A stretch of 38,057 nt of DNA, taken from the IMG/VR virus record IMGVR_UViG_3300050821_003114, positions 1 through 38,057 of that record, one strand, 5' to 3'. Below the pieces are notes generated by a model. That model saw nothing but the letters and a program-made list of their open reading frames with translations, made no database searches and had not been told where the DNA came from. This document shows, piece by piece, positions 5,871 to 38,057 of this stretch. The position numbers were made by a program, and so were the translations under genes. The stretch comes from a virus. Position 1 is the stretch's first letter. Each line of letters starts with the position of its first letter.

Positions 5871-6485
5871 ATGGCTTCTCAACCTTATCCTGGTGGAACT
5901 TTTCCAGTTCAATTTTTCGGTGGTGGCATCAAACGATCGATCGTCGCCCCCAATCCCGGTGGCCCCGGCGGTTCTTTCAAGGCCGGTGGCTCCGTATTAG
6001 CCGGTGGAACTTTACAAAATAATGCGATTTTCGATAATACATTTGGTACTCTAAACTATCCATATCAAGGTATTCATAATGCGTACAATGATAATAAACC
6101 AATTAATGGTTTATCTTTAGATCATGGTAGTGAAAGCATTACCAAAGCTGTTTCCGCCGGTTCATTTGCAACTATGACTGCTGGTCAATATGTTATGTTG
6201 ACTTTCAATAGTCAGATCGCTGGCATTCCTACTAATATTTTGAGAAGTCCCGGCAGCTCTTATCGCAAAAGCCAGAACCCAAATATCGGTTGGGTAGACA
6301 CTCTTCTTATTAATAAAACCGGTGGCTGGTATTACAATAATGGCTTACCAATTAATCCGGTAAATACCCGTGATAGTATTGGAACAGAAAATTTCCCAGG
6401 AAATTACGGTATTCCAGGACGATTAACATTTTTATCAACTGGCAAACTTGCCGTTCCGCAATCTTATAGCTCCAAGTCTGATTAA
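5871..6485 (+). CDS. Gly/Pro-rich possible structural protein, 204 aa
   Basis: The N-terminal 50 residues are rich in Gly and Pro (YPGGTFPVQFFGGGIKRS, NPGGPGGSF). The rest is Asn/Ser/Thr/Gly-rich with few charges, a composition typical of virion or fibre-like proteins. There is no signal peptide and no recognised domain. It stands apart from the operon pattern: a spacer with a hairpin, a strong GGAGG five nucleotides before ATG, and an intrinsic terminator downstream. This suggests a separately controlled, abundant product. A structural role is inference. Confidence 0.75.
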   Translation: MASQPYPGGTFPVQFFGGGIKRSIVAPNPGGPGGSFKAGGSVLAGGTLQNNAIFDNTFGTLNYPYQGIHNAYNDNKPINGLSLDHGSESITKAVSAGSFATMTAGQYVMLTFNSQIAGIPTNILRSPGSSYRKSQNPNIGWVDTLLINKTGGWYYNNGLPINPVNTRDSIGTENFPGNYGIPGRLTFLSTGKLAVPQSYSSKSD

Positions 6486-6519
6486 TATCTCTTGGAATAT
6501 ATTATTAATTTTCAACATG

Positions 6520-6543
6520 AGCCGGCTAATCCCCGGCTTTTTT
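6520..6543 (+). terminator. intrinsic terminator
   Basis: AGCCGG (6520-6525) pairs with CCGGCT (6533-6538) across a seven-base loop and is followed at once by a run of T to 6543. It lies 34 nt after the stop of the Gly/Pro-rich gene and just before the ribosome site of the next gene. It is the clearest terminator in the window. Confidence 0.85.
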
Positions 6544-6559
6544 CCTGGAGTCTATCAAA

Positions 6560-6859
6560 ATGAGTGTGGCTAGTTTGACAGTGGATGTTCGTGAGTTAAA
6601 AGCGAAGCTAGAGACTCTAGAAAATTTTTTAAATGAGGGAGACAATCTCACTCTACCGTACAGGCAAATGAGTTTAATCGTAGAAGATATTAACCAAGCA
6701 TTTGACAAGTATGGTAGACAGTTAGAAGCTCATCAGGCACAGATTAATAGATTTAATGGTGAAGCTGTTAAAGCTCGTAATCAAATCGTATATATGTTTC
6801 TAACAATTTTAGCGACTCTGTTTGGTAAAGTAATTATTCAAAACTTCATAGGACAATAA
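6560..6859 (+). CDS. coiled-coil protein with C-terminal membrane helix, 99 aa
   Basis: Residues 6-75 are heptad-like helical (VRELKAKLETLENFLNEG, later YGRQLEAHQAQINRF). Residues 80-97 form one hydrophobic helix (VYMFLTILATLFGKVII). This layout matches XhlA/holin-associated proteins and some phage membrane anchors. It is the first gene after the terminator and overlaps the exported protein that follows by one nucleotide. It is probably an inner-membrane component of a lysis or envelope module; the exact role is unproved. Confidence 0.68.
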   Translation: MSVASLTVDVRELKAKLETLENFLNEGDNLTLPYRQMSLIVEDINQAFDKYGRQLEAHQAQINRFNGEAVKARNQIVYMFLTILATLFGKVIIQNFIGQ

Positions 6860-7638
6860 TGATGACAAAGTTAAAAGTATTTCTATTATGTGCTGCAACA
6901 GCGGCTCTAACGTTCGGCTTAACTCTCGCGGTAGAATCCACTAGAAAAACCACAGAGCCATGTTCATTGGTTATCAATGGGCCGGCTATGGTTAATAAAG
7001 GTGGAATAGTACAATTCAATGCTGTTGTAAAGAATCCGTCATGGTTTCTAACGAAAACTGTTTATCAATGGAAGGTATTACACAAGGATGGAGAATTAAA
7101 ATATAATTCACTTGGGGATAATGGTATTTATTTGCCGGCTGGTGTAAATAGCGATAAGCTATTTGTTATTACCAGTGCTGTTAATTATCATAATTATCTT
7201 CTTTGGGGTAGTGTTTCTCCTTTAGATACTAAAGTTAGTGTTGTCAGTGTTGGCGATCCTGTTCCCCCTGGTCCCGGTCCCGGTCCTGGTCCCAATCCCC
7301 CTCCCCCTCCCGACCCAACGCCTGTATCAGTGCCTTTATTTGCGGTTTTGATTCACGATAGCACTACAGACATCAATCTTACCCCTGGACAGTTAGCCCT
7401 AAAGAATTCGCAGACCATCCAGGCCAAGCTAAAGCAGTTGAACACCAGTTGGAAAATTTACGACAAAGCAAATCCGGTTCTAGCAGATCCTAAATGGCAA
7501 GCAGCTATTACTAAGGCTGGTTTACCGGGTCTATTCTTAGTTGATAAGGATGGAAAACAATATAATATAGGAAATGAGAAAGTTGTAAATGAAGATAGTA
7601 CAGTATTAGAAGTTCAGTCTTTGAGAGGGAATAAGTAA
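6859..7638 (+). CDS. exported or anchored protein: Ig-like domain, Pro/Gly linker, thioredoxin-like tail
   Basis: An N-terminal signal or anchor (residues 4-25, FLLCAATAALTFGLTLAV) is followed by a beta-rich segment (about 35-130) resembling a PKD/Ig-like fold (INGPAMVNKGGIVQFNA). A Pro/Gly linker at about 134-154 follows. The final 100 residues resemble a thioredoxin-like domain without a CxxC motif (SWKIYDKANPV, then LPGLFLVDKDGKQY). The same linker-plus-tail layout is, to my knowledge, found in planctomycete proteins. It overlaps the papain-like protease gene by one nucleotide and probably acts outside the inner membrane with it. Binding partners are unknown. Confidence 0.68.
   Translation: MMTKLKVFLLCAATAALTFGLTLAVESTRKTTEPCSLVINGPAMVNKGGIVQFNAVVKNPSWFLTKTVYQWKVLHKDGELKYNSLGDNGIYLPAGVNSDKLFVITSAVNYHNYLLWGSVSPLDTKVSVVSVGDPVPPGPGPGPGPNPPPPPDPTPVSVPLFAVLIHDSTTDINLTPGQLALKNSQTIQAKLKQLNTSWKIYDKANPVLADPKWQAAITKAGLPGLFLVDKDGKQYNIGNEKVVNEDSTVLEVQSLRGNK
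7270..7293 (+). repeat. GGTCCC hexanucleotide repeat encoding Gly-Pro linker
   Basis: Four tandem near-identical GGTCCC units (one GGTCCT) encode Gly-Pro repeats. C-rich Pro codons extend the tract to about 7315. It is the most GC-rich spot in the surrounding AT-rich DNA and could vary in length by slippage in multiples of two residues without breaking the frame. Confidence 0.8.
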
Positions 7639-8483
7639 TGTTAACAGTAGCTTATACTAAGTCGGGAGTTGAATTCCCCGCATTTTTTGATGGTACAGAA
7701 AATCGAATTCTCGGAAGGATTCAAACAGATGCTCCTAAGTTAAAGGTAGCTCCATTCAGTGAATATCTAGCCAGCATCAATGCTCCGGTTGTAGACGTAA
7801 CCAAACTTGCTCCATATGATCGCTATCAGGTAAACGTACCCGTCTTGGATCAAAACGGATTAGGTGCGTGTTGTGGTCACAGTCATACTACGGGAATGGA
7901 AAAAGCTCGTGATTCTGCCGGTTATACTTATCAGGCATTAAGCGCTGATTCTCTTTATGCTCAAGTAAATGGTGGGCATGATGGTGGTAGTGATCCGGCC
8001 GACTGCATCACTGCTATGGAACAAAATGGTATTTGTCTTTTAAGTGAAGTCCCTGATAAATGGGTTCTATGGCAAAATATCCCGGCGTCAGCCAAGGATA
8101 ATGCAAAGCGTTTTCGTATCGTAGCAGCCGGTGTTTATTCTTGTAAGAGTTTTGCTGAAGTCGTAACTGCTGATAGTTTAGGTTTTTCTACCACATTTAC
8201 TATTAATGTTGGTAACAATTTCGGTCCCGGTTCCGATGGTGTTGTAGGTTTTGCTCCGGGTTTTGCCAATCACTGTGTAGCAGGTGGAGAAGCCTTCCGC
8301 ATTCAAAATGGTACTCCTCAGTATCGTAGCCGTAACAGTTGGGGTACTTCATGGGGGCAAAACGGTCTATTTTGGATTGAAGCAAAACATATTGATAACC
8401 AACCCGGTGCAGAATGCTATGCAATTATGTGGGCTTTAGAAGATCCCCAAGAACCTAATCCTATTCCACACACACTACAATAA
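7638..8483 (+). CDS. papain-like (C1 family) cysteine protease, 281 aa
   Basis: The oxyanion Gln and nucleophile align with papain's QGxCGSC motif as Gln72 and Cys78 (DQNGLGACCGHSHT). Papain's following Trp is replaced by Cys79. The catalytic His is at 212 (ANHCVAGGEA) and the Asn at 233 in SRNSWGTSWGQNGLFWI, the typical papain NSWG signature. So the Cys-His-Asn set is complete. About 55 residues before the domain could be a short propeptide. There is no evident signal peptide, although both neighbours have one. Likely roles are digestion of host envelope proteins or processing of phage proteins; the substrate is unknown. Confidence 0.9.
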   Translation: MLTVAYTKSGVEFPAFFDGTENRILGRIQTDAPKLKVAPFSEYLASINAPVVDVTKLAPYDRYQVNVPVLDQNGLGACCGHSHTTGMEKARDSAGYTYQALSADSLYAQVNGGHDGGSDPADCITAMEQNGICLLSEVPDKWVLWQNIPASAKDNAKRFRIVAAGVYSCKSFAEVVTADSLGFSTTFTINVGNNFGPGSDGVVGFAPGFANHCVAGGEAFRIQNGTPQYRSRNSWGTSWGQNGLFWIEAKHIDNQPGAECYAIMWALEDPQEPNPIPHTLQ

Positions 8484-8492
8484 GGATAAATT

Positions 8493-8855
8493 ATGTTAAA
8501 TGCACTCGTATTAGCATTATTTACTCAGTTACCCATGCAGGGAATTTGTACCGAAGACAAGCCGGCTGTGAAACAACCACCGGCTGTCGTCGTACAAGAA
8601 AAAGTCGTTGTTGTAAAAATCTATGTAATGCTTGATAAATTCGACGTAGAACACCATAATGAGAATCTAAATATTCTTATCAATGAAGTCCGAGAAGCCA
8701 ACAAAAAGCCGTTTAAACTACAGGATCGTTTCGGGCAATGGTGGGAGCATCAAGATAAGGCTACGCTCCAGAGGTTTGTAAGTCAACTTAATTATGACGT
8801 AAGGCCACAAGCCCCGGTTTATGGGAATTGTGCCACCGGCCAATGCGGGAGATAG
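8493..8855 (+). CDS. small exported protein, 120 aa
   Basis: The N-terminus reads as a signal peptide (LNALVLALFTQLPMQGI, about residues 2-18), followed by a Lys/Val-rich strand region and a charged helical part. It ends in CATGQCGR with two cysteines. It closes the exported-protein group and stops at TAG. The family is not recognised; a periplasmic or surface location is inferred from the signal. Confidence 0.65.
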   Translation: MLNALVLALFTQLPMQGICTEDKPAVKQPPAVVVQEKVVVVKIYVMLDKFDVEHHNENLNILINEVREANKKPFKLQDRFGQWWEHQDKATLQRFVSQLNYDVRPQAPVYGNCATGQCGR

Positions 8856-10958: not shown

Positions 10959-11173
10959 TGGCAATTAAAGAAGACGGATATATTTATTGGTATTGGTGGG
11001 CTAAATATAAAAAAGGTAAAGACCGGTTAGTTATCGTTGAAGTTCGTGAATTTGGAGCAGATGGTGAAAAATGTCTCAATTATGAATTACCTGGAAGTGA
11101 TTGGGGATATACAGAAGAAGATTTTGAATTTATCCAATTAATAGAGGAACCTCTATATGATCCATCTAATTAA
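10958..11173 (+). CDS. hypothetical protein, 71 aa (shares C-terminal motif with the 22356 gene)
   Basis: Trp/Tyr-rich N-terminus (YIYWYWWAKYKKGKDRL) and an acidic C-terminus. The segment EFIQLIEEPL near residues 57-66 matches EFIRLVEEPL in the protein at 22356, including an identical 14-nt DNA core, so the two may be distant paralogues. It overlaps the macrodomain gene by 17 nt. No known function. Confidence 0.63.
   Translation: MAIKEDGYIYWYWWAKYKKGKDRLVIVEVREFGADGEKCLNYELPGSDWGYTEEDFEFIQLIEEPLYDPSN
11142..11155 (+). repeat. TAGAGG-AA-CCTCTA inverted repeat, copy 1
   Basis: A 14-nt sequence with 6-bp arms and a two-base centre, ending just before the macrodomain ATG at 11157. The same 14 bases occur at 22504-22517. 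It codes for IEEPL, so it may simply reflect a shared protein motif, but the symmetry and place could make it a protein-binding site. Confidence 0.5.
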
Positions 11174-11627
11174 AGGAGATCTATTTACAACCAAGGCAAC
11201 AGTAATTGCACACGGGGTTAATTGTCGTGGAGCATTTGGTTCCGGGGTAGCCGGGCAAATTGCAAAACGCTGGCCTAAAGTACAAGAGTCATACTTAGAA
11301 AGATATCGTCTAAAAGGGTGGAAGCTTGGAGATGTAGAGTTAGTCTATTCTAGAAGTCCCCTAAAACACCCCATTATTGCCAATATGGCTACGCAAGATA
11401 AATTTGGTTATGATGGAAAACTGTATGCTGATTATAATGCTATAGATATTTGTTTAGATCAAGTGTTGTATTTTGCCGATTATTGTGGTTATTCCGTAGC
11501 CATGCCCAAGGTTGGATGTGGTCTGGCCGGAGCGGACTGGAATATAGTCTATGGAATACTACAAGATCTTTCCTGTAAATACGATCGCGTAGCGATCGAG
11601 GTATATGAATTGAATAATAGAGAATGA
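11157..11627 (+). CDS. macrodomain protein (ADP-ribose binding or hydrolase)
   Basis: A single 156-residue macrodomain. GDLF at 7-10, VIAHGVNCRGAFGSGVAGQI at 16-35 and VAMPKVGCGLAGADW at 114-128 are the ADP-ribose-binding loops, most like the Poa1/TARG1/DarG branch. Such proteins hydrolyse ADP-ribose-1''-phosphate or remove ADP-ribose from modified residues. With a PARP-like gene at 165 it is a candidate eraser for the phage's own mark, or a counter to host ADP-ribosylation. The catalytic residue cannot be fixed by eye: TARG1's Asp after CGL is Ala here, as in many phage members. It overlaps both neighbours. Confidence 0.88.
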   Translation: MIHLIKGDLFTTKATVIAHGVNCRGAFGSGVAGQIAKRWPKVQESYLERYRLKGWKLGDVELVYSRSPLKHPIIANMATQDKFGYDGKLYADYNAIDICLDQVLYFADYCGYSVAMPKVGCGLAGADWNIVYGILQDLSCKYDRVAIEVYELNNRE

Positions 11628-11638
11628 TGGAGCTGATT

Positions 11639-14600
11639 ATGTTGTTGACGAACGATTTTTCAAAAGAGATTTGGTTTAATACTTATAAATATGAAGAGGA
11701 GAAAGACCTATCAGGTACATTTCTACGTAACGCGGTATCGATTGCCTCAGTGGAGAAGACAGAAGAATTGAGAGAGTACTGGACTCAACAGTTTAATGAT
11801 GTGTTGCAAAAAATGCAACTTTGTCCGGCCGGAAGAATACTTGCTAACGCCGGAACACATTATAAAGGAACTACATTATTTAATTGTTACGTTGGTTCTA
11901 GACCTTCTTATGATTTGGATTCTCTTGATGGTATTCTTGAGACGTTGCGTATCCAGGCACAAACGCTGAAAAGCGAAGGTGGTTGGGGAATGAATTTCTC
12001 TTTCATACGCCCTAGGGGTTCTACAATATATGGAATTGGGGTAGAGACTCCTGGATCTATTAAGTATATGGAACTGTTTAATCGGTCGTCAGACATAATC
12101 ACAGCAGGATCAGGCAGGGAAGCCGGCAAGGTCGGGTTGAAGAAAAAGATACGTAAAGGCGCACAAATGGGGATGTTATCAGTCTGGCATCCCGATATAT
12201 TAGAATTCATCACAGCAAAGAGAGTAGCTAATCGACTGGATAAATTCAACGTCTCCGTAGTAGCTGATAAGAAGTTTATGGAGAAAGTACTTCTCTATGA
12301 AGAATCTGGACAGGATTCCGAATGGGACTTTATTTTTCCGGAAACAACTCATCCGAACTACAAATCTGAATGGGATGGTAATATATATAGATGGGTCGAT
12401 AAAGGATATCCGGTACGCAAATACGGCAGTATCCTGGTAAGCAAACTCTGGGATTTGATCATGCGATCTACCTTTGATTACAATGATCCCGGCATCTTTT
12501 TTGAAGATCGTGCTAATGCTACACATCTATTTAGTTATGATCTGGATAAGTATATATTGTGTACAAACCCTTGTCAACCAGCATGGGCTACTGTTTTAAC
12601 TCCTAATGGTATTTCTACACTCAAAGATATTAACATTGGTGATTTGATTTGGTCTGAAAAAGGATGGACTAAAGTAGTTAATAAAGTGTGTACAGGAAAT
12701 AAAGATGTATATGCTTACAAAACCACTTTTGGGACATTTTATGGAACCGAAAACCATAAAGTGTTAGAAAATGGAGAAAAGATAGAAGCGAAAAGTGCTG
12801 AAGGTATAGATATTTTAAGAGGCGGATATAATGCTGCTTCATATATTTGTAACCCAAAAATAATAATGGATGGTTTAGTCTTTGGTGATGGTTCTGTTCA
12901 CAAAGCATCAAATAATCTAGTACATTTAAATATAGGAAAAGATGATCAAGATTATTTTGATAGTTCTATTAGTAATTACATTGGACAGCATAGACCGGGT
13001 TTACATGAGTATTCGTATGAGATAAAAACAGATATACTACCCGAAGAATTGCCGCACACTTACGCTAGAAAAATTCCTGACAGGTATTTCTATGGTGATA
13101 AATTAACAGTAAGATCGTTTCTCAAAGGATTATATTCTGCAAATGGTAGTGTAACAGGGGGTAGAGTAACTCTCAAAGCAAGTTCCTATACAGTGATTTC
13201 ACAAGTTCAAATCATGTTATCTTCTTTAGGAATTGCATCTTATTATACTGTTAATAAGCCAAATAAGATTAAATTTTCTAATGGAGAATATGAGTGTAAA
13301 AAGAGTTATGATCTTAATATTACTAGAGATAAACACAAATTTTGGGCTATCATTGGATTTCTTCAAAAATATAAACAGGACAAATTATACCTATTAATTA
13401 AAAATAAATGTGATAAACCAGAAGTAATCACAAAAGATATTCATACTATAGAATTTGTTGGTAATGAAGATGTTTATGATATAACAGTAGATAATGTGAC
13501 ACATACTTATTGGACTGGTGGATTAAACGTATCAAACTGCGGCGAACAGAGCATGCCATATGGATCTGTATGTGATCTAGCATCTATTCCATTACCATCC
13601 TTCTATAAGAACGGTATATTTGACTACGTTGAATTTGAAAGGGCGGTTAGAGTAGCAGTTCGTTTACTTGATAATGTTAATGACTATAGTTCTACCCCGC
13701 ATGAAAGTTATACTAAGTCTGCCAGAGAGAACCGGCGAATTGGTCTAGGGTTAATGGGTTGGGCTAGCTTACTCTATCTGATGAAAGTCCGGTTTGGCAG
13801 CGATGAAGCGGAAGCTATTAAACACAAGTTGATGAAAACCTTTACTTCTGCCGCCGTTCAGGCTTCGATAGACCTCGCCATTGAGAAAGGCCCGTTCACG
13901 GGCTGTGATAAGGAAAAGTTAGCAGATCATCCGTTTTGGGACCAAATAGAATTAGACGCAGGATATAGGGAAGCTATACGTAAACATGGACTTCGCAATT
14001 CTGCCCTATTTAGCATCCAGCCGAATGGAAATACCGGAGTTCTTATGAATTTAATGAGCGGTGGCGCGGCCGAACCCATTTTTATGCATGAATATATTCG
14101 TACCGTAATCGTACAACCGGCTCCGGAACATATCAAAGACCGTTGTCCTAAATATGAACAGGGAGAATTCCATGAGACTGATCTTTTCAAATTTACAAAG
14201 GAAGGCTCGGAGACGATTCTAAAAGGCACGGATGAAACCGGAGTAACCTATAAGATAGATAAGAACAGAGGGTTGACCAAAGAGGTACTCTGCGAAGATT
14301 ATGCTGTCAAGAAATTGAAAGAAATCGGAGAATGGGACTCGGAAGCGCCTTGGGCGGTTACAACCACTAATTTATCTGTAGAAGATCATATAAAGGATCT
14401 TAAAGGTTGGGCTAAATGGATTGATTCCGCAATCAGCAAGACAGTTAATATTCCAAATGACTATTCATATGAAGACTTTAAGAAAATCTATTTGGAAGCT
14501 TACAAGACCGGAGTTATCAAAGGTATAACTACATACCGGGCCGGCACTATGACCAGCGTATTATCTGCCAAAATGAAGGATAAGATTTATAAGACCAACG

Positions 14601-15103
14601 CCCCAAAAAGACCTAGATCTCTTCCCTGTAAAGTATTTTATCCAATGCTTCGTGGGCAACGTTATTATGTGGTATGTGGTTTATATGAGGATGATTTATA
14701 CGAAGTTTTTGCCGGAAAATTAACCGAATGCATTCCTCACAGTATTACAGAGGGTGAAATAGTAAAAGTTAAAAAAGGTCATTATAGGTTAATTAATAAT
14801 GATGATGTAATCATTGACAATCTCATAGAACATTGTGATCATTCGGAAGAGGCTATTTGTCGTTTGATGAGTGCCGGACTTCGACATGGAACGGACGTGA
14901 AATTTCTTAAAGAACAACTATCTAATTGTAAAGGAGAACTATATTCTTTTGGAAAAGTTCTTGGAAGAATTTTAGGTAAGTTTATTCCGGATAATACTTT
15001 ATCGAACGAGTTATGTCCGGATTGTGGAAAGAATTTAGTTTTTACTGAGGGTTGTAAGGGTTGCACCGGAGACGGTGGTTGTGGATGGAGTAAATGCTCA
15101 TGA
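11639..15103 (+). CDS. nrdJ: adenosylcobalamin-dependent (class II) ribonucleoside-diphosphate reductase with intein
   Basis: It reduces ribonucleotides to deoxyribonucleotides using a B12-derived radical, without needing oxygen or a second subunit. ATG 11639 has GGAG six nucleotides upstream; ATGs at 11624 and 11627 are alternatives. The translation is 1154 residues, or 832 after removal of the 322-residue intein (residues 312-633). Features include TLFNCYV (first redox Cys), NP|CGEQ interrupted by the intein (radical Cys and Glu), GSVCDLASIPL (second redox Cys), RRIGLGLMGWA and a Cys-rich tail (LCPDCGK, CGWSKC) typical of NrdJ. Directly downstream are two exported enzymes, then thyA and DHFR. 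The class II call rests on the tail and the absence of a small subunit gene here. Confidence 0.93.
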   Translation: MLLTNDFSKEIWFNTYKYEEEKDLSGTFLRNAVSIASVEKTEELREYWTQQFNDVLQKMQLCPAGRILANAGTHYKGTTLFNCYVGSRPSYDLDSLDGILETLRIQAQTLKSEGGWGMNFSFIRPRGSTIYGIGVETPGSIKYMELFNRSSDIITAGSGREAGKVGLKKKIRKGAQMGMLSVWHPDILEFITAKRVANRLDKFNVSVVADKKFMEKVLLYEESGQDSEWDFIFPETTHPNYKSEWDGNIYRWVDKGYPVRKYGSILVSKLWDLIMRSTFDYNDPGIFFEDRANATHLFSYDLDKYILCTNPCQPAWATVLTPNGISTLKDINIGDLIWSEKGWTKVVNKVCTGNKDVYAYKTTFGTFYGTENHKVLENGEKIEAKSAEGIDILRGGYNAASYICNPKIIMDGLVFGDGSVHKASNNLVHLNIGKDDQDYFDSSISNYIGQHRPGLHEYSYEIKTDILPEELPHTYARKIPDRYFYGDKLTVRSFLKGLYSANGSVTGGRVTLKASSYTVISQVQIMLSSLGIASYYTVNKPNKIKFSNGEYECKKSYDLNITRDKHKFWAIIGFLQKYKQDKLYLLIKNKCDKPEVITKDIHTIEFVGNEDVYDITVDNVTHTYWTGGLNVSNCGEQSMPYGSVCDLASIPLPSFYKNGIFDYVEFERAVRVAVRLLDNVNDYSSTPHESYTKSARENRRIGLGLMGWASLLYLMKVRFGSDEAEAIKHKLMKTFTSAAVQASIDLAIEKGPFTGCDKEKLADHPFWDQIELDAGYREAIRKHGLRNSALFSIQPNGNTGVLMNLMSGGAAEPIFMHEYIRTVIVQPAPEHIKDRCPKYEQGEFHETDLFKFTKEGSETILKGTDETGVTYKIDKNRGLTKEVLCEDYAVKKLKEIGEWDSEAPWAVTTTNLSVEDHIKDLKGWAKWIDSAISKTVNIPNDYSYEDFKKIYLEAYKTGVIKGITTYRAGTMTSVLSAKMKDKIYKTNAPKRPRSLPCKVFYPMLRGQRYYVVCGLYEDDLYEVFAGKLTECIPHSITEGEIVKVKKGHYRLINNDDVIIDNLIEHCDHSEEAICRLMSAGLRHGTDVKFLKEQLSNCKGELYSFGKVLGRILGKFIPDNTLSNELCPDCGKNLVFTEGCKGCTGDGGCGWSKCS
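12572..13537 (+). other. intein with LAGLIDADG-type endonuclease in nrdJ
   Basis: A 322-residue in-frame insert. It begins with Cys (CQPAWATVLTPNGI, block A), has TENHKVL (block B TxxH), two endonuclease-like motifs (LVFGDGSVH and FLKGLYSANGSV, LAGLIDADG-like), and ends EDVYDITVDNVTHTYWTGG...NVSN before Cys+1. The penultimate residue is Ser rather than the usual His. The terminal Asn and the downstream Cys nucleophile are intact, so splicing is expected. Its codons are visibly more AT-rich than the flanking nrdJ sequence, consistent with separate acquisition. Confidence 0.93.
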
Positions 15104-15780
15104 ATAAATTAGCTATAATATTATTAAGTATGTTGTTATTTTTACAATATTTTGTAAGTGTATTACCCAAGAATCCGGTTAAAGAAATATCTGGGGTTTC
15201 CGTAACTATCAAATACGCTGGTGGAACCGGTAGCGGAGTTATCCAGAAAATTGGAAATGATGTTTACGTATGGACTGCTAACCATGTTTTGACATCACCT
15301 ATTCCTTTCCCTTGGCCTGTAGAAGTTGTTTACGATGTTCACCACAAAGGCCGCCATACAGCAATTCAATATTTTAGAGCAGAAATATTTGCTAGAAGTG
15401 AAGAATATGATTTAGCAATCTTAAAACTAAAACATAATCACTATTTTAGATACGGTGCAGAATTATATAAAGATGATGAAATTCCGGAAGTAGGACAAGA
15501 TATTTGGGGTGTGTTTGCTCCTCTCGGAGAAGAAAACTCACAAACCGTTGTTAGAGGTACTATTTCGCAAACGGATAGACTTTTCAAAGGAAGAAGTATA
15601 GATCAAATTGATTGTTCTATAAATAGGGGTTGTTCTGGTGGTGGAGTTTTCCTTAATGACGGTAGACTTATAGGTATTGCTGTTATGATGAGAGATAATA
15701 ATATAGGTCTTATGGTTCCCGTTCGCGTGATGAGGGAATGGGCTAAAACTACTGATTTACCGAAGGAACTTTATCAATGA
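15100..15780 (+). CDS. exported trypsin-like serine protease
   Basis: An N-terminal signal or anchor (LAIILLSMLLFLQYFVSVL, residues 4-22) precedes a chymotrypsin-fold domain of the HtrA type without a PDZ domain. The triad is His62 (TANHVL), Asp104 (EYDLAILKL) and Ser179 (NRGCSGGGVF). GTGSGVI at 43-49 and GRLIGIAV at 188-195 are also family-typical. ATG 15100 overlaps the nrdJ stop by 4 nt; ATG 15094 is possible. It ends in an ATGA overlap with the glycoamylase-like gene. Substrates are probably envelope proteins, by inference from export. Confidence 0.88.
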   Translation: MNKLAIILLSMLLFLQYFVSVLPKNPVKEISGVSVTIKYAGGTGSGVIQKIGNDVYVWTANHVLTSPIPFPWPVEVVYDVHHKGRHTAIQYFRAEIFARSEEYDLAILKLKHNHYFRYGAELYKDDEIPEVGQDIWGVFAPLGEENSQTVVRGTISQTDRLFKGRSIDQIDCSINRGCSGGGVFLNDGRLIGIAVMMRDNNIGLMVPVRVMREWAKTTDLPKELYQ

Positions 15781-16718
15781 TAGCTCAACTCGCGTTGCTC
15801 GTCTCGCTATTGGGGAATGTAAACGAAGAAAAAGTATTGATTAATCATATCTTAGAAGCGAAGACTGAAAAACATTGGATTCTTGATAGGAAGTCTGATA
15901 AAAACGTAGTTTCTATTGCTGCCACCGGAGTAGGTTTTTACGCATATGCAAGAGCGGCGAAACTCGGAATGATATCTAGAGAAGACGCTAGTAAATGGAT
16001 TAATGATGGTTTTATGTCGATGATAGGTGTAAATTTTGAGAATGATGGTTGGCTATATCACTTCGTAGATAGAACCGGAAAACCTTATGAAGAGAGTGAA
16101 GTCTCTTCTATAGATTCGGTTATATTTTATCTGGGGGCAGAAAGAGCCGCTCAAGAATTAGGTGAACCTGTTTTAATAGATTATGTTAGAAAATGTAAAG
16201 GGAAAATTAGTACGGCGGTTATGCTGGATAAGGACGGATATTTTTATCACGGTTGGACTATGGAAAATGGCCGGCGAAACATGTTAAAGTATAAATGGAG
16301 AAATTATAGCGAAGGCATTTTAATATATAGATATTTCGACTTAACATTTAAACCGGTATATACACATTACGACTTGCCATTATTCGTATATTTCTATCCT
16401 TTGGCATTCTATCCGGAAGAACGTTCCTGGGTTGATAATTTGGGTAAAGCCATAGACTATCAATTAAGTATTACCGGGCACTTCGGTTATACCGCTTGTG
16501 ACGGTCCAAACGGATATCAAGTTAATACTCCATACATAATAAGTCCATTAGCTATATTTAGTTGTAAAAAATTCTTTCCTGCAAAAGTGGAAAAAGAATT
16601 GAATAAGAGATCGGCTCCATGGAGTGTTCAAGCAATTACGGTTAATCACAGTTGGCAGACTGGAGATAGGGTTTTGATGGATGACGGAATGGCATTAATG
16701 CTTATGAAAGGTAAATGA
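15777..16718 (+). CDS. exported glycoamylase-like (PF10091/GH144-type) enzyme
   Basis: A short N-terminal signal (IAQLALLVSLLG) is followed by a helical-barrel domain resembling the glycoamylase-like family, which cleaves or binds glucans. Segments in order: AATGVGFYAYARAAKLGMIS, DGWLYHFVDR, ESEVSSIDSVIFYLGAE, NYSEGILIYRYFD, PLFVYFYPLAF and YTACDGPNGYQV. At 313 residues it is shorter than the usual 400 or more, although the conserved acidic positions (SSID, YSEG, CDGP) are present. It is translationally coupled to the serine protease gene. Likely targets are host capsule, slime or periplasmic glucan. The family is recognised from pattern only. Confidence 0.75.
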   Translation: MIAQLALLVSLLGNVNEEKVLINHILEAKTEKHWILDRKSDKNVVSIAATGVGFYAYARAAKLGMISREDASKWINDGFMSMIGVNFENDGWLYHFVDRTGKPYEESEVSSIDSVIFYLGAERAAQELGEPVLIDYVRKCKGKISTAVMLDKDGYFYHGWTMENGRRNMLKYKWRNYSEGILIYRYFDLTFKPVYTHYDLPLFVYFYPLAFYPEERSWVDNLGKAIDYQLSITGHFGYTACDGPNGYQVNTPYIISPLAIFSCKKFFPAKVEKELNKRSAPWSVQAITVNHSWQTGDRVLMDDGMALMLMKGK

Positions 16719-26323: not shown

Positions 26324-27691
26324 ATGGATATTACAAAGATGTTATTTGGCGGCGCTTTAATAGGGACTCTTGTCTCCGCATGGGGAACTATTAAAGGTGT
26401 CGCATGGAAGATTTGCACGATTGCTTTTAAAAAGGTTAATATTGACGACTCATTATCTAAAGAGATATTGAACTATCTACGAGAAAATTATAAATATTTT
26501 CATTTACATGATCGTTCTTTTGAAAACTCTATTCATTTCACCAAAACTGATTGTCGATACGACCAGACCGGGTGGGAAACATTTGATAATGCTTCGTTTA
26601 TATTCTGGTATGGAAAAATACCGTTTTATTATTCTAATTACCGCTCATCTACCAAAGATAGCAATGGCAATGAAGTGAAAACAAAAGGTGCCACTCTTTA
26701 CTATATCAGGCGTACTTTAAATATAGAACAAATTATTTACAATTCTATTCATCGTATCAATAAAATAACATTGGAACGCACCAAGGCAAGACAAGAGGAC
26801 TGGAATCGTTTTTATATTAAATATATTCCCGGCAAAACCAAGGAAAAAGAAACGCATTTTTCATATGATTTTACTTCTAATGTAAGTAAATGTTTAAGTC
26901 ACGATTTAACAGATTTAGGATTCAATATATCTAAGGATGGTATAAACAGAATAATTCTCACAGAAGAAAATCAAGAGGCTATTAAATTTGTAGAACTTTG
27001 GAAGAATAATAAAGACTGGTATGTTAAAAAGGATATTCCTTGGAAAATGGGATTACTATTACATGGTCCACCCGGAACCGGCAAAACATTGCTGAGCAGA
27101 AGAATAGCCGAACATCTTAATATGCCTTTATTTGTTTACAGACTTGGTATGTTGACAGATCCGGAATTTTCTGAAGAATGGGCCTCCATGCAAGCTTCGG
27201 CCCCATGTGTAGCCCTTATCGAAGATTTTGATAATGTGTTCCATGGCAGAGAAAATATTGTTTCTATAGATAATTTTATGGAAAGGTTTTCTATATTAGA
27301 AGATAAACCAAAAGAAGGTGACGAACAAAAACGTCGTAATGGTTTTGGTCACAAAGTAACTTTTGACAATTTGTTAAATACTTTAGATGGTGCCGAGCGA
27401 TATGAGGGTGTTTTGACTATCATTACAACGAATCATATAGACAAGGTTGATGCTGCAATTTTGGATCGACCTGGCCGGATTGACAAGGTGATTGAATTAA
27501 CATATTTAACAAATGAGAATAAATTAGAAATGATTGAAAAAATCTTAGGAGATATGCCGATTGCTCGTCAAGCAGCAATACAATATATAAATACAAATAT
27601 CGATAAACTTTTAACTCCAGCCCAATTACAAGAGAAGTGTATTTCATTGGCGCTTAAAGCATTTTATAATCAAAATTTGGAGGATCGATGA
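26324..27691 (+). CDS. BCS1-like AAA ATPase, 455 aa
   Basis: A hydrophobic N-terminus (residues 6-35) could anchor it in the membrane. A BCS1-type middle region follows, then the AAA module: GPPGTGKT at 248-255, Walker B VALIEDFD, sensor TIITTNHIDKVD and arginine finger DRPGRIDKVI. A loop of about 40 residues (ENIVSIDNFMERF onwards) lies after Walker B. Mitochondrial BCS1 moves folded proteins across membranes; the role of bacterial and phage relatives is unclear. It is coupled by ATGA to a cysteine-peptidase-like gene. Confidence 0.88.
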   Translation: MDITKMLFGGALIGTLVSAWGTIKGVAWKICTIAFKKVNIDDSLSKEILNYLRENYKYFHLHDRSFENSIHFTKTDCRYDQTGWETFDNASFIFWYGKIPFYYSNYRSSTKDSNGNEVKTKGATLYYIRRTLNIEQIIYNSIHRINKITLERTKARQEDWNRFYIKYIPGKTKEKETHFSYDFTSNVSKCLSHDLTDLGFNISKDGINRIILTEENQEAIKFVELWKNNKDWYVKKDIPWKMGLLLHGPPGTGKTLLSRRIAEHLNMPLFVYRLGMLTDPEFSEEWASMQASAPCVALIEDFDNVFHGRENIVSIDNFMERFSILEDKPKEGDEQKRRNGFGHKVTFDNLLNTLDGAERYEGVLTIITTNHIDKVDAAILDRPGRIDKVIELTYLTNENKLEMIEKILGDMPIARQAAIQYINTNIDKLLTPAQLQEKCISLALKAFYNQNLEDR

Positions 27692-28089
27692 AAACTGTTT
27701 ATCAAGACCAAAAAACCAATTGTTTCTCTGCTTGTTTAGCAAGTATATTAGAACTTGACATTAAACATATTCCCAATTTTTATGATGAAAATAATGGTAA
27801 TCCTGATTTGATGTATGAAAATATCAACCAATGGTTAGATAAGCATGATTATTATAGAATCCATTTCCCAAAAATGTCTTTAAAAGAAATTCAACAGAAT
27901 TTTAAACACACAGGATACGGTATAGTTCTTATGGGATTAAAAGATCATCCTAATATAGCACATGCTATTGTTAGTTATAATGGATTATTATTACATAACC
28001 CTATGGGTAATCAAGAACACCATCAATCTGGATTAAATGAAAAAAGTTGTTGGTTTAATTGTTTAGTACGTAAATTTAATAAGGCTTAA
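27688..28089 (+). CDS. C39-like cysteine peptidase fold protein, 133 aa
   Basis: QDQKTNCFSACLASILEL at 6-23 places Gln6/Gln8 before Cys12, followed later by NIAHAIVSYNGLLLHNP with a His and an Asn or Asp-like position. This order (Q, C, H, N/D) matches the C39-like/papain-superfamily proteins common in phages. Whether it cleaves peptides is unproved. It overlaps the BCS1-like ATPase gene by 4 nt, hinting at a shared function. Confidence 0.7.
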   Translation: MKTVYQDQKTNCFSACLASILELDIKHIPNFYDENNGNPDLMYENINQWLDKHDYYRIHFPKMSLKEIQQNFKHTGYGIVLMGLKDHPNIAHAIVSYNGLLLHNPMGNQEHHQSGLNEKSCWFNCLVRKFNKA

Positions 28090-33724: not shown

Positions 33725-34186
33725 ATGTTATGTCGAGAAGATTTTCGTTATCTTGAATCAAGATATGCTTTTGATTTACGTGAAGCGTTCCGAAAGAAGT
33801 TATTTGCTAATGAAATCACTTTTGAGGATTATAAAAATGAAATAGAAGATGTTCCTATCACATTTGACTCCTATCAGTGCGGCACGGCTTGGACAGCCTC
33901 TTATCCGCCTTCAATGCCGACGGATGTTTATCTAGCTATGGGTGTAGCCGGCGAAACTGGCGAATTGGTAGAAGTGGTTAAAAAGTTACACCGCAACAAT
34001 AATGGCGTAATTACAGATGAAATCCGGGATAAACTCGTTAAAGAAGCTGGAGATGTTCTATATTATCTTTCAGCTTTAATGTTAGCTCACGGAGTGAGCA
34101 TGGAAGATGTTGCCAAGACAAATCAGCTAAAACTAGTTGATCGTTGGAAGCGGAATGTGGTTTGTTCTGAAGGTGATAATAGGTGA
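33725..34186 (+). CDS. MazG-like nucleotide pyrophosphohydrolase
   Basis: All-alpha NTP pyrophosphohydrolase fold. GVAGETGELVEVVKK supplies Glu77 and Glu80, and KEAGDVLYYLSAL supplies Glu107 and Asp110, matching the E-x2-E ... E-x2-D metal site. The N-terminal 60 residues are an added helical segment. Phage MazG-like enzymes are proposed to hydrolyse dNTPs or alarmone-like nucleotides. It overlaps the DNA polymerase gene by 4 nt. Confidence 0.85.
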   Translation: MLCREDFRYLESRYAFDLREAFRKKLFANEITFEDYKNEIEDVPITFDSYQCGTAWTASYPPSMPTDVYLAMGVAGETGELVEVVKKLHRNNNGVITDEIRDKLVKEAGDVLYYLSALMLAHGVSMEDVAKTNQLKLVDRWKRNVVCSEGDNR

Positions 34187-36168
34187 ATAGAATGGCGGAA
34201 CGCATGCAATCAGAACTAAAGTGGGCAAGTTTGCACAATCATACAGCGTTGGGGAGTTTATTAGACGGACTATCTAAACCAGAAGATTTATTAGAAAGAT
34301 CTATTAAAAATAACATTCCAGCAATCGCAATTACAGATCACGGGACTATGAATTGTGTGATTAAAGCGGCAAAAGCCAAAAAGAAAGTCATTGACAAGTT
34401 GAAAGGAACAGAATTTGAGGAAGCTGCAAAAACAATTAAGTTGATCAATGGCTGTGAGATGTATATAAATAATGGCAATAAGAACACTCACTTAGTTGTA
34501 CTAGCAAAGAATGCGGCCGGCTATAAGACTTTGATTAAAATGGTAAGTGAGGCTACTCGAAGAGAGAACTTCTACCGGAAACCACGGTTAACCCTATCCC
34601 AGATAGGAGAGTTTAATACAGATAAGAACCTGATTAGTTTCTCCGGTCACTGTGGTTCGGATATGGCCGACATTATATTTACGGATTGTAAGGCTGCTTA
34701 CAGTGCAACCGAAGAACAGGAGGTACGCAAGTATATCAATCCTAAATGTAAAAGTTTATTATTGGAAAAAGCCAGTGAATATATTGATGTATTTGGTAAA
34801 GAGAATTTCTCCTTGGAATACCAGCGTTTTGATCAAGATCGCATGCCCGCACAACGAGTTATTGCATCCGCAATGGATTGGGTTGCTTCACAGCTAGGAT
34901 TGACAAAAGTTGCAACTGCCGATTCACATTATACTTATAAATATCAATCTGAAGATCAGAGAATCCTTCTGTGTAATGCGTTGAAAACGACTCTTCCTAG
35001 GGTTTATAAACAACTGGCCAGTGACGATGATGATGTAGCTCTTGGAGGCTTTTTCAAGTCCGATAAGTATTATTTACCAACGGCGGCTGAAATTGCAGAA
35101 ATCCATGGAGAGGAAGAAATTAAGCGTAGTCTGGAAATCGCGGATATGTGCGAGTCCTACGATCTTTCTAATCCGCCGGTAATTCCGGCTTTCGACTGCC
35201 CGAATGGACTATCAGCAGATGAGTATATGAAAGAACTTTGCCGGGCCGGCTGGAAAAACAAATTGAATTTCTCCTCTAAATCTGAACGCGAAGAGTATGC
35301 GAATCGCGTGAAGTATGAATTAGATGTTCTCCAAGGGGCGAAGCTATCTGATTATTTTCTGATTGTACAGGATTTACTTGCTTATATTAAGAGTAAAGGA
35401 TTCTTATGTGGTCCGGGAAGAGGAAGTGCGGCCGGATGTCTTAGTAGTTATTTGTTAGGTATTACTGCTGTAGATCCAATTCCTCCGGGTTTGATTTTCG
35501 AGCGTTTCTATAATGCCGGTCGTAACACGCCTGGGAAACCAGCTTCGCTACCGGATATTGATATGGATATCCAAGGTGCGGCTGCTGATGTTGCTGTCAA
35601 ATATTTAAAGGATAAATATGGTCATGCTAATGTTGGTCAAATCGCCAATTACGGTCGTTTGATGGGTCGGGCTTGCCTTAAGGATGTATTGCGAGCACAT
35701 GAAGCTTGTGATTTTCAGACAATGAATAAAATATGTTCATTCCTTGTTGATGAGTCTGCGATTGCAGACGAATTAAACGAAATGAAAGAAGAAGAAGGTG
35801 AATCCTCTATTATTAAATGGGCTTTGGAAAATAATGCGAAAGAGCTTTCTGAATGGGCGTGGCTGGATGAGAAAACCGGAGATATAAACGGGCCTTATGG
35901 TAAGTATTTCCAACAAGCAATCCGGCTAGAAGGGACTTACAGACAACGAGGTAAACATGCGGCCGGCTATGTAATCTATCCCGGTCCAGTCTCGGATATC
36001 TGTCCCGTCACCTATAATAAAGAGGGAGATTGCCAAATTGACTTTGATATGCACGACGTGGAATATACCGGTGGTGTAAAGATGGATATATTGAAGGTGT
36101 GGGCTCTAGATAAGGTCGCAGACTGTGCCGAGTCCATAAGACTTGAGTTTCTTTTAGAGGAAATATGA
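34183..36168 (+). CDS. dnaE: DNA polymerase III alpha, N-terminal part (PHP and catalytic palm)
   Basis: 661 residues covering PHP and most of the polymerase palm. GTG 34183 overlaps the MazG stop (GTGA); ATG 34192 is also possible. PHP metal-ligand positions look intact: His18, His20, ITDHG (Asp52, His53), Glu92, SGH and ADSH (Asp247, His249). Catalytic acids are Asp458 and Asp460 (LPDIDMDI) and Asp635 (VKMDILKVWALD). FLCGPGRGSAAGCL is the dNTP-binding signature. The reading frame ends 26 residues after Asp635; the rest of the polymerase continues in the gene at 37586. It is therefore a split subunit. Confidence 0.92.
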   Translation: MNRMAERMQSELKWASLHNHTALGSLLDGLSKPEDLLERSIKNNIPAIAITDHGTMNCVIKAAKAKKKVIDKLKGTEFEEAAKTIKLINGCEMYINNGNKNTHLVVLAKNAAGYKTLIKMVSEATRRENFYRKPRLTLSQIGEFNTDKNLISFSGHCGSDMADIIFTDCKAAYSATEEQEVRKYINPKCKSLLLEKASEYIDVFGKENFSLEYQRFDQDRMPAQRVIASAMDWVASQLGLTKVATADSHYTYKYQSEDQRILLCNALKTTLPRVYKQLASDDDDVALGGFFKSDKYYLPTAAEIAEIHGEEEIKRSLEIADMCESYDLSNPPVIPAFDCPNGLSADEYMKELCRAGWKNKLNFSSKSEREEYANRVKYELDVLQGAKLSDYFLIVQDLLAYIKSKGFLCGPGRGSAAGCLSSYLLGITAVDPIPPGLIFERFYNAGRNTPGKPASLPDIDMDIQGAAADVAVKYLKDKYGHANVGQIANYGRLMGRACLKDVLRAHEACDFQTMNKICSFLVDESAIADELNEMKEEEGESSIIKWALENNAKELSEWAWLDEKTGDINGPYGKYFQQAIRLEGTYRQRGKHAAGYVIYPGPVSDICPVTYNKEGDCQIDFDMHDVEYTGGVKMDILKVWALDKVADCAESIRLEFLLEEI

Positions 36169-36773
36169 TAATCAATATTAAAACACACAAAATTTGTAAC
36201 CAAGAAAAACCGCTGCGTGGAGATATCGTTGTACATAGGGTAATTAATTTCGATGCAAATACAGGTAAAGAAATGTTGGAGTCTTTTAATAAAGCATTAG
36301 CTATTGGACAACCGATTTTTCCGGTTGTAATTGATAGCTATGGCGGCCAAGTATACAGTTTACAAGGATGTATAGATATTTTTGAATCTTCTCCAATTCC
36401 CGTTGCAACGATTGTCCAGGGCAAAGCCATGTCCTGTGGATCATTTTTAGCTGCATTCGGGACCAAGGGATATAGGTATATTGGTAAAAATTCTCATATA
36501 CTTATTCATCATTTAAATAATACTATTCATGGAATAACTCCTCAAATAAAAGAATGTGCAAAACATACTGAAGTAGTAGATAAGGAATTATTTGAAAAAT
36601 TATCTGTATATTGTGGTCATCAGACTAATTATTTTCAATCAAAACTCCAACAATTTGAGGGAGCAGACTGGTACGTTTCTCCGGAGGAAGCGATAGCTAT
36701 GAATTTAGTTGACCGTATTGGTATTCCAACACTTAACATAAACCTCAAATTAGAATATGGATTACAAATATGA
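36165..36773 (+). CDS. ClpP-like serine protease
   Basis: 202-residue ClpP/crotonase-fold peptidase. The catalytic Ser90 is in GKAMSCGSFLAA, His115 is in ILIHHL and Asp183 in YVSPEEAIAMNLVDRIG, a complete triad in family order. VVIDSYGGQVYS gives the ClpP Gly-Gly oxyanion loop. Phage ClpP-like enzymes often act in head maturation, but this one sits between the two halves of the DNA polymerase and overlaps the N-terminal half by 4 nt. No ClpX-type partner is seen nearby. Confidence 0.87.
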   Translation: MIINIKTHKICNQEKPLRGDIVVHRVINFDANTGKEMLESFNKALAIGQPIFPVVIDSYGGQVYSLQGCIDIFESSPIPVATIVQGKAMSCGSFLAAFGTKGYRYIGKNSHILIHHLNNTIHGITPQIKECAKHTEVVDKELFEKLSVYCGHQTNYFQSKLQQFEGADWYVSPEEAIAMNLVDRIGIPTLNINLKLEYGLQI

Positions 36774-37486
36774 AAAAAAAGTTTCTTAGTACGAAGTTAA
36801 ATAACAACATCATCGTATATGACTATGAGACTGGAAGTCGGGATGAGTTCACGACAGAACCGTTGGAAATTTCGGCTGTATGTGCGGATATAAACACACT
36901 TGAGTTAAAGACAGACAGCGAAGGCAAGGTATTAGTGTTTTCAACATTAGTCCGCCCTACGGATTGGAGTATAGTTGAAGACGGAGCTTTAAAAAAGAAT
37001 AACATTACCAGAGAGATGCTCGAAGAGAAGGATGAATCAGGTAACTATAAAGTTCCGGATCAAGAATTTGCATTCCGACAATTCGCGGGATTTTGTAGGA
37101 GTTTCGCCAGAAACGATCGCAAATGGGAACAACCTTATGCGGCCGGCTTCAACATACAAAAATTCGACAATGTAATTAGCAAAAGACTTTGTACAAAATA
37201 TAGCCATGTTGATAAGGATGGAGACAATCTATTATTTCACCCCTTTCATAGTTTTGATTTGATGGATATATTGCGAGTATTCTTCGCGTGGAGTGACGAA
37301 CTTCCGGCTTACAATCTTGATGCAGTCCGAGACTATTTTGGTATTGACAAAACTGGATCGCATAGGGCTGAAAAAGACGTGCTAGATACCTGGATGATCA
37401 TGAAGAGATTCATTACTTACTTTAAGCAAAGCTCACATAAGATGTTGCCAAAATTCAAAGGTGCGTTCAACTCCGAAGGAGTTTAA
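36770..37486 (+). CDS. DEDDh 3'-5' exonuclease (proofreading type)
   Basis: DnaQ/ExoI-like fold of 238 residues. ExoI is VYDYETGS with Asp18 and Glu20, ExoII is AAGFNIQKFDN with Asp133, and ExoIII is SHRAEKDVLDT with His198 and Asp203, giving the DEDDh set. Lying directly between the two polymerase parts, it is the natural proofreading partner. It overlaps clpP-like by 4 nt; one nucleotide separates it from the 33-residue gene that follows. Confidence 0.88.
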   Translation: MKKKFLSTKLNNNIIVYDYETGSRDEFTTEPLEISAVCADINTLELKTDSEGKVLVFSTLVRPTDWSIVEDGALKKNNITREMLEEKDESGNYKVPDQEFAFRQFAGFCRSFARNDRKWEQPYAAGFNIQKFDNVISKRLCTKYSHVDKDGDNLLFHPFHSFDLMDILRVFFAWSDELPAYNLDAVRDYFGIDKTGSHRAEKDVLDTWMIMKRFITYFKQSSHKMLPKFKGAFNSEGV

Positions 37487-37487
37487 C

Positions 37488-37589
37488 ATGGAAGATTATT
37501 ATGACATAGTTGGTATCCACTGGAATAGATTATTTTTGATTCTCATAGTGTCAATTATTGGCCTAGTTTTTATTAAGTATTTTCAATGA
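37488..37589 (+). CDS. 33-residue single-pass membrane peptide
   Basis: ATG 37488 to TGA 37589, with GAAGGAG just upstream, overlapping the next ATG by 4 nt. Residues 14-30 are a clean hydrophobic helix (RLFLILIVSIIGLVFIKY) after an acidic head (MEDYYDIVG). It lies directly before the C-terminal polymerase part. Could tether to the membrane; function unknown. Confidence 0.6.
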   Translation: MEDYYDIVGIHWNRLFLILIVSIIGLVFIKYFQ

Positions 37590-38057
37590 ACAATTATAAA
37601 ATAACGGATGATGAAGTCATCTTTGATTGTGGGTGCTCCTTCCGTCGCACGGGGAAAACCGTGGTTTTTGAACCGGATCTACATAACCCACGCCATACAA
37701 TTGACTTTGAATGTTCGGCTACGTATGAATTATTACAATTAGGTTTAACTGAAGGGGTTTTCCAATTAGGTTCCCCTGATGGCAAGACTCAGTGTAAAAA
37801 GTTGGTTCCTACGGAAATGGAACATATCAGTGCTCTTGGAGCAATTGTCAGACCCGGATGTAAAGAATCCAAGGATAAAGACGGACTAAATATTACGACT
37901 CGTTATCAGCGTAAGAAAAACTGTAAAATGGAAATGACACCTTTTCATCCTGTAGTAGATGCTATCTTAGCTCCTACATATGGTGAAAATATCTATCAGG
38001 AGACTTCATTAGAGCTTGCTAAGCAGTGTGCGGGATTTTCCCTGAGTGAAGCTGATA
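37586..38057 (+). CDS. dnaE: DNA polymerase III alpha, C-terminal part (runs off window)
   Basis: 157 residues are visible, open to the end of the window. About 45 N-terminal residues (FDCGCSFRRTGKTVVFEPDL) have no evident match in bacterial DnaE; two cysteines could bind metal. From residue 46 the DnaE sequence resumes: SATYELLQLGLTEGVFQLG, KKLVPTEMEHISALGAIVRP and GENIYQESLLELAKQCAGFS-like segments (here ETSLELAKQCAGFSLSEAD) are the finger-domain motifs that in DnaE follow the third catalytic Asp region. This gene thus completes the polymerase begun at 34183. Confidence 0.88.
   Translation, partial: MNNYKITDDEVIFDCGCSFRRTGKTVVFEPDLHNPRHTIDFECSATYELLQLGLTEGVFQLGSPDGKTQCKKLVPTEMEHISALGAIVRPGCKESKDKDGLNITTRYQRKKNCKMEMTPFHPVVDAILAPTYGENIYQETSLELAKQCAGFSLSEAD

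Follow-up and report, generated by a model that had tools for sequence, protein, structure and literature searches.

A papain-like protease and an exported thioredoxin-like partner encoded as a conserved gene pair in large phages, with a possible role at the host envelope

The locus analysed here raises the question of what a phage might do with a papain-like protease whose gene overlaps that of an exported protein. It belongs to an IMG/VR virus record that spans 38,057 bases and was analysed over its whole length (hereafter the window). The record is classed as linear and probably represents part of a larger phage. The original prediction described four ORFs located after a terminator and proposed that they might constitute an unusual lysis or surface-digestion module. 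The features of the locus are as follows.

6519 to 6547, + strand: intrinsic-terminator-like hairpin and T run, between an upstream Gly-rich ORF and the cassette of ORFs 1 to 4
6560 to 6859, + strand: ORF 1, 99 residues, predicted coiled coil and single C-terminal transmembrane segment
6859 to 7638, + strand: ORF 2, 259 residues, N-terminal export signal, beta-rich N domain, Pro/Gly linker and Cys-less thioredoxin-like C-terminus
7261 to 7317, + strand: Pro/Gly/Asn linker of ORF 2 (VPPGPGPGPGPNPPPPPDP), with similar linkers in the huge-phage loci L002, L003 and L006
7318 to 7635, + strand: Cys-less thioredoxin-like domain, for which homology is demonstrable according to a profile of three huge phages, unlike the rest of ORF 2
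7638 to 8483, + strand: ORF 3, 281 residues, papain-like (C1A) cysteine protease devoid of signal peptide
7869 to 7871, 8271 to 8273 and 8334 to 8336, + strand: codons of the predicted catalytic residues C78, H212 and N233 of ORF 3
8493 to 8855, + strand: ORF 4, 120 residues, small protein with a weakly hydrophobic N-terminal stretch and the C-terminal sequence NCATGQCGR

Genomic setting of the cassette

As originally described, the four ORFs are real frames tightly packed on the + strand after the terminator-like hairpin, with 1-nt overlaps (TAATG) at the ORF 1/ORF 2 and ORF 2/ORF 3 junctions and a 9-nt gap between ORFs 3 and 4. A Shine-Dalgarno-like stretch, as read from the sequence, precedes each of their starts. 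The hairpin (-10.5 kcal/mol, z of only -1.7) represents a modest terminator-like signal. Relatives of the Gly-rich ORF upstream (5871 to 6485) were sought in several searches, including Pfam and PHROG, and none were found.

The + strand of the window encodes phage replication and nucleotide genes. Their products include a PARP-like protein with a WGR domain, IMPDH/GMPR, dCMP deaminase, a macrodomain protein, an intein-bearing ribonucleotide reductase, PhoH, RecA, an AAA ATPase, DnaB, primase, dNMP kinase, a PD-DEXK nuclease, Pol III alpha and ClpP, as well as thymidylate synthase and DHFR, both assigned by eye. The PARP-like ADP-ribosyltransferase (165 to 1394) is related to those of large phages, e.g. 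XacN1; together with the macrodomain protein (11157 to 11627), this phage thus possesses a putative writer and a putative reader or eraser of ADP-ribose. The ribonucleotide reductase is interrupted by an intein that harbours a LAGLIDADG endonuclease domain (11624 to 15103). Pol III alpha is apparently split (34183 to 38056): its PHP and NTPase part (34183 to 36168) and its finger part (from 37586) are separated by genes for a ClpP-like protease and an RNase_T exonuclease, and there is no sign of an intein at the break. A second pair of exported hydrolases is encoded by overlapping genes at 15094 to 16718. The first is a trypsin/HtrA-like protein with an N-terminal signal (PF13365, 1.5e-17), and the second, of 313 residues, resembles an alpha/alpha-barrel glycosidase on visual inspection and has no Pfam or PDB match. 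Finally, a small protein (27688 to 28089) displays a C39-like Cys/His pattern by eye, with no family match.

The protease, its exported partner and the flanking ORFs

In ORF 3, Q72 (the oxyanion Gln), C78, H212 and N233 follow one another as in papain, and an NSWGTSWGQNG motif is present. The Pfam family PF00112 matches it with an E-value of 0.0017 and 18.9 bits, just below the gathering cut-off of 20.7 bits, which its relative in the huge-phage locus L003 exceeds with 21.4 bits. PHROG 16701, annotated as 'peptidase', also matches ORF 3 (E 6e-6). A profile built from three papain rows and run against the PDB retrieved xylellain (3ois; E 3e-12) as the best match, along with many cathepsins; unlike the phage protein, xylellain is a bacterial C1A protease. 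The AlphaFold model of ORF 3 is poor (pLDDT 44), and its nearest structural matches, in the PDB and among viral proteins, are papains. One of the latter, A0A6J5MXS7 in BFVD, carries the annotation 'Peptidoglycan binding-like'. Judged from its sequence, ORF 3 is a C1A papain-like protease; the complete Cys78-His212-Asn233 triad originally noted is borne out by the additional Q72, the profile matches and conservation in four phages.

Alignments leave only about 55 to 60 residues ahead of the papain-like core in the phage proteins, a stretch shorter than a typical full propeptide would require. An exact-peptide-pattern scan of 85,000 bacterial and archaeal genomes, which distant homologues could escape, yielded no confirmed host homologue of the papain. 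A plasmid search found generic C1 peptidases only, and no relative of the thioredoxin-like domain of ORF 2.

ORF 2 begins with a hydrophobic export segment, which, together with the linker, agrees with the initial description of an exported protein composed of an Ig-like domain, a linker and a thioredoxin-like domain. The two domains fare less well. The thioredoxin-like domain has no cysteine in any of the four known proteins (that of the window and its three relatives described below) and hence no CxxC active site; ORF 2 is thus not a redox thioredoxin. In all four, the domain retains a proline ahead of its third predicted strand. Residues 159 to 228 were modelled with an AF2 pLDDT of about 60, and the structures that resemble the model most are thioredoxin-fold proteins of the PDI b', DsbD and DsbH types, with VIA Z values of at most 5.2 and no Foldseek E-value below 0.001. 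With low confidence, the domain would thus at most adopt a thioredoxin fold of the non-redox, binding type. The N domain is beta-rich in the model, with strands predicted at pLDDT 30 to 40, has no Pfam match and cannot be aligned to the relatives, and the Ig domain proposed for it was not confirmed. A chagasin-type inhibitor was considered as the identity of ORF 2 and rejected, as no such motif was seen.

The description of ORF 1 as a coiled-coil membrane protein holds, with a predicted coiled coil and one hydrophobic segment at the C-terminus. Pfam and PHROG searches gave no significant match to holins or other families. With the XhlA-type lysis protein of PHROG 937 ('hemolysin'), ORF 1 shares an N-terminal coiled coil followed by a C-terminal transmembrane segment, a likeness of layout only (E 0.09). 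ORF 4 has no strong hydrophobic peak, and its supposed export was not confirmed.

Recurrence of the gene pair in a clade of huge phages

When 50,697 phage records were searched by tblastn with the papain, a single good relative emerged, encoded by phage LR756511.1 (595 kb). Scans of IMG/VR with single proteins and with a profile added two contigs, G001 and G002, from that one clade only. The three huge-phage papains are 28-31% identical to ORF 3, and Q72, C78, H212 and N233-S-W-G are unchanged across all four proteins, none of which has a signal peptide. In each of the three huge phages, the papain gene shares 1 to 4 nt with the gene directly upstream, whose product combines a signal peptide with a PGPNP-type linker and a Cys-less thioredoxin-like C-terminal domain. 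Thus, gene order, overlapping codons, linker, thioredoxin-like domain and papain site are common to the huge phages and the window.

To avoid circularity, we built profiles from the three huge phages only and ran them against all window ORFs of at least 40 residues. The papain profile retrieved ORF 3 (5e-36) and that of the full partner ORF 2 (7e-10). With the linker removed from the target, ORF 2 was still found (E 3e-5, and 8e-6 with a domain-only profile), the next window ORF being at 0.26 or above. Its N-terminal part was not matched among window ORFs, nor was any other member of the huge-phage cassette found in the window; ORF 4 lies outside the conserved pair in this search. The profile results therefore argue that the papain and the thioredoxin-like domain are homologous as a pair, and the N domains not demonstrably so. 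A correspondence between ORF 1 and the amphipathic protein encoded third in the huge-phage cassette was considered and rejected (E 0.027). Of the cassette that was sought in other phages, the ORF 2/ORF 3 pair thus recurs in a second clade, whereas the four-gene set is not conserved.

By tblastn, we also compared the 64 window proteins with the three huge-phage records (833 kb in total). Apart from the papain, most matches are enzymes of replication and nucleotide metabolism (22-42% identity), to which a GNAT enzyme, a macrodomain protein and a small zinc-ribbon-like protein (46%) are added. Local gene order is common to both at the pair alone. Since nearly all other matches are generic replication enzymes, the pair seems to have been inherited or exchanged as a unit, i.e. 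it would be either a transferred module or an old shared one. Its recurrence in an otherwise different clade indicates that the two-gene pair is a real module.

The huge phages differ from the window in what follows the pair, namely an amphipathic protein and then exported proteins with c-haem (CxxCH) motifs (L002:21196-23772, L003:11474-14210 and L006:11326-14117), which are absent from the window. The planctomycete cytochrome domain PSCyt1 was not significant in any of these phages in a search that gave no control signal either. Unlike the window, the huge phages also encode a second, xylellain-like papain with no thioredoxin-like partner (L038:17509-18339, L047:1936-2718 and L031:9265-10050).

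The strict pairing and gene overlap in all four phages would also suit a protein that guards the enzyme, and we considered whether ORF 2 might act in the periplasm as an inhibitor of the protease or as its specific chaperone. Ig-like protease inhibitors exist, e.g. IPI of B. subtilis (PMC3901451). However, conservation resides in the thioredoxin-like domain rather than in the N domain, no inhibitor motif was recognised in ORF 2, and enzyme and inhibitor would begin in separate compartments. This is the most improbable of the explanations considered.

In L003, L002 and L006, the pair is located at most about 8 kb from proteins that look virion-like by eye, and hydrolases do occur in phage virions, as in XacN1 (PMC5852040). 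The protease might therefore be virion-associated, acting in entry or particle maturation, with the thioredoxin-like protein as an adhesin-like surface protein. Against this, an N-terminal export signal such as that of ORF 2 is unusual in virion proteins. Moreover, the lytic enzymes reported in XacN1 particles comprise an M23 peptidase along with a chitinase and a lipase, with no mention of the C1 peptidase in that set (PMC5852040). We regard a virion role as unlikely.

Candidate roles at the host envelope

Thermoanaerobacterium phage THSA-485A clearly encodes a papain within its lysis cassette. Its C1A papain, Tsac_2838, is encoded between a GH25 endolysin, 15 nt upstream, and a PHROG 13712 holin (E 1e-6) just downstream. 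It sits behind an 84-residue coiled-coil protein with a C-terminal transmembrane segment and weak matches to holin and hemolysin PHROGs; the window papain likewise lies near such a protein. Tsac_2838 and PHROG 16701 resemble ORF 3 in length, papain site, NSWG motif and lack of a signal peptide, with about 26% identity between Tsac_2838 and ORF 3. In contrast with the window, the neighbour in THSA-485A is a muralytic endolysin rather than an exported thioredoxin-like protein. That endolysin and the papain (L049:4020-5774) have in common a P/Q linker and a YxIxFDDxNxA tail (blastp 6e-5; 0/5000 shuffles), possibly a common targeting tail.

Phage papains are not all found in lysis cassettes. That of Sycamore phage is encoded among tRNA genes, and that of phage DP SC_2_H4 (L050:4630-5537) in a replication region, where its gene overlaps an upstream gene whose product has a lipoprotein-like signal.

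Our best single reading, a tentative one, is that ORFs 2 and 3 form a host-envelope protease module working at lysis or release; more broadly, the two genes probably serve in attack on host envelope proteins. It draws on the invariant papain site in four phages with profile homology to xylellain and cathepsins, on the adjacent and overlapping genes in 4/4 phages, on the retrieval of both window partners by the huge-phage profiles, and on the THSA-485A precedent, the annotation of A0A6J5MXS7 and Cwp84 of C. difficile, a C1A papain that acts on surface-layer proteins (PMC5842191). We infer enzyme activity, timing, release route, substrate and the role of the partner as follows. The two proteins would be translationally coupled, the protease being produced in the cytoplasm and its non-redox partner exported to the periplasm or envelope. 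The protease would gain access to the envelope once the inner membrane is breached, with ORF 1 as a candidate membrane partner for this step in the window phage. It would then cleave host surface or envelope proteins and so aid progeny release, while the thioredoxin-like protein may bind or present either the protease or its substrate.

Several observations weigh against a function in lysis. The cassette is located amid replication and nucleotide genes, with no recognisable virion or lysis genes beside it, and the Sycamore and DP SC_2_H4 papains are similarly placed outside lysis regions. The c-haem-motif proteins that follow the pair in huge phages give no hint of lysis. A signal peptide is absent from the papain, ORF 1 has no significant holin match, and the M23 peptidase of LR756511.1 could serve that phage as endolysin. 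The original proposal of a lysis or surface-digestion module is retained as the leading reading, for two genes rather than four.

A second possibility, only slightly less probable, is that the pair is a putative host-takeover or envelope-remodelling module used during infection rather than at lysis. The thioredoxin-like protein and the protease would then alter periplasmic or surface proteins (e.g. receptors, with superinfection exclusion as an outcome) or host protein turnover. The replication-region location in both the window and DP SC_2_H4, the overlapping gene with a lipoprotein-like signal in the latter, and the position of the pair at the head of the run of c-haem-motif proteins are in favour of it; the THSA-485A papain, which belongs to a lysis cassette, speaks against it.

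The presence of a conventional endolysin and holin elsewhere would bear on the lysis reading. We searched for eight muralytic families, with positive controls. Amidase_2, SLT, phage lysozyme, M15_3, NlpC/P60, M15_4 and Amidase_3 have no match in the window or in the relatives' records, and the eighth, M23, has none in the window and one in LR756511.1. As the window is only a 38 kb fragment, absence there means little. Over these families, the muralytic repertoire of the relatives is thin but not empty.

An unusual planctomycete envelope had been invoked as a reason for a protease. Planctomycetes possess lysozyme-sensitive peptidoglycan sacculi (PMC4432640), so the nature of their envelope gives no reason to expect a protease instead of a muralytic enzyme, and this rationale is not supported. 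A planctomycete host is a conjecture from resemblance, and our literature search found no paper naming a planctomycete phage.

C1 peptidases were already known in phages, with XacN1 ORF 382 (PMC5852040), THSA-485A and PHROG 16701 as examples. For the paired exported thioredoxin-like protein, we found no description in a limited search of the open-access literature. A further, rather doubtful possibility is that the two genes constitute a mobile envelope-proteolysis module, used with or instead of a classical endolysin and common to lineages otherwise little alike. An exported protein that strictly accompanies a papain-type protease provides a concrete gene pair for testing what such proteases do in phages. 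Conserved across two otherwise different groups of large phages, this pair is a candidate for a protease-based step in release or envelope takeover.
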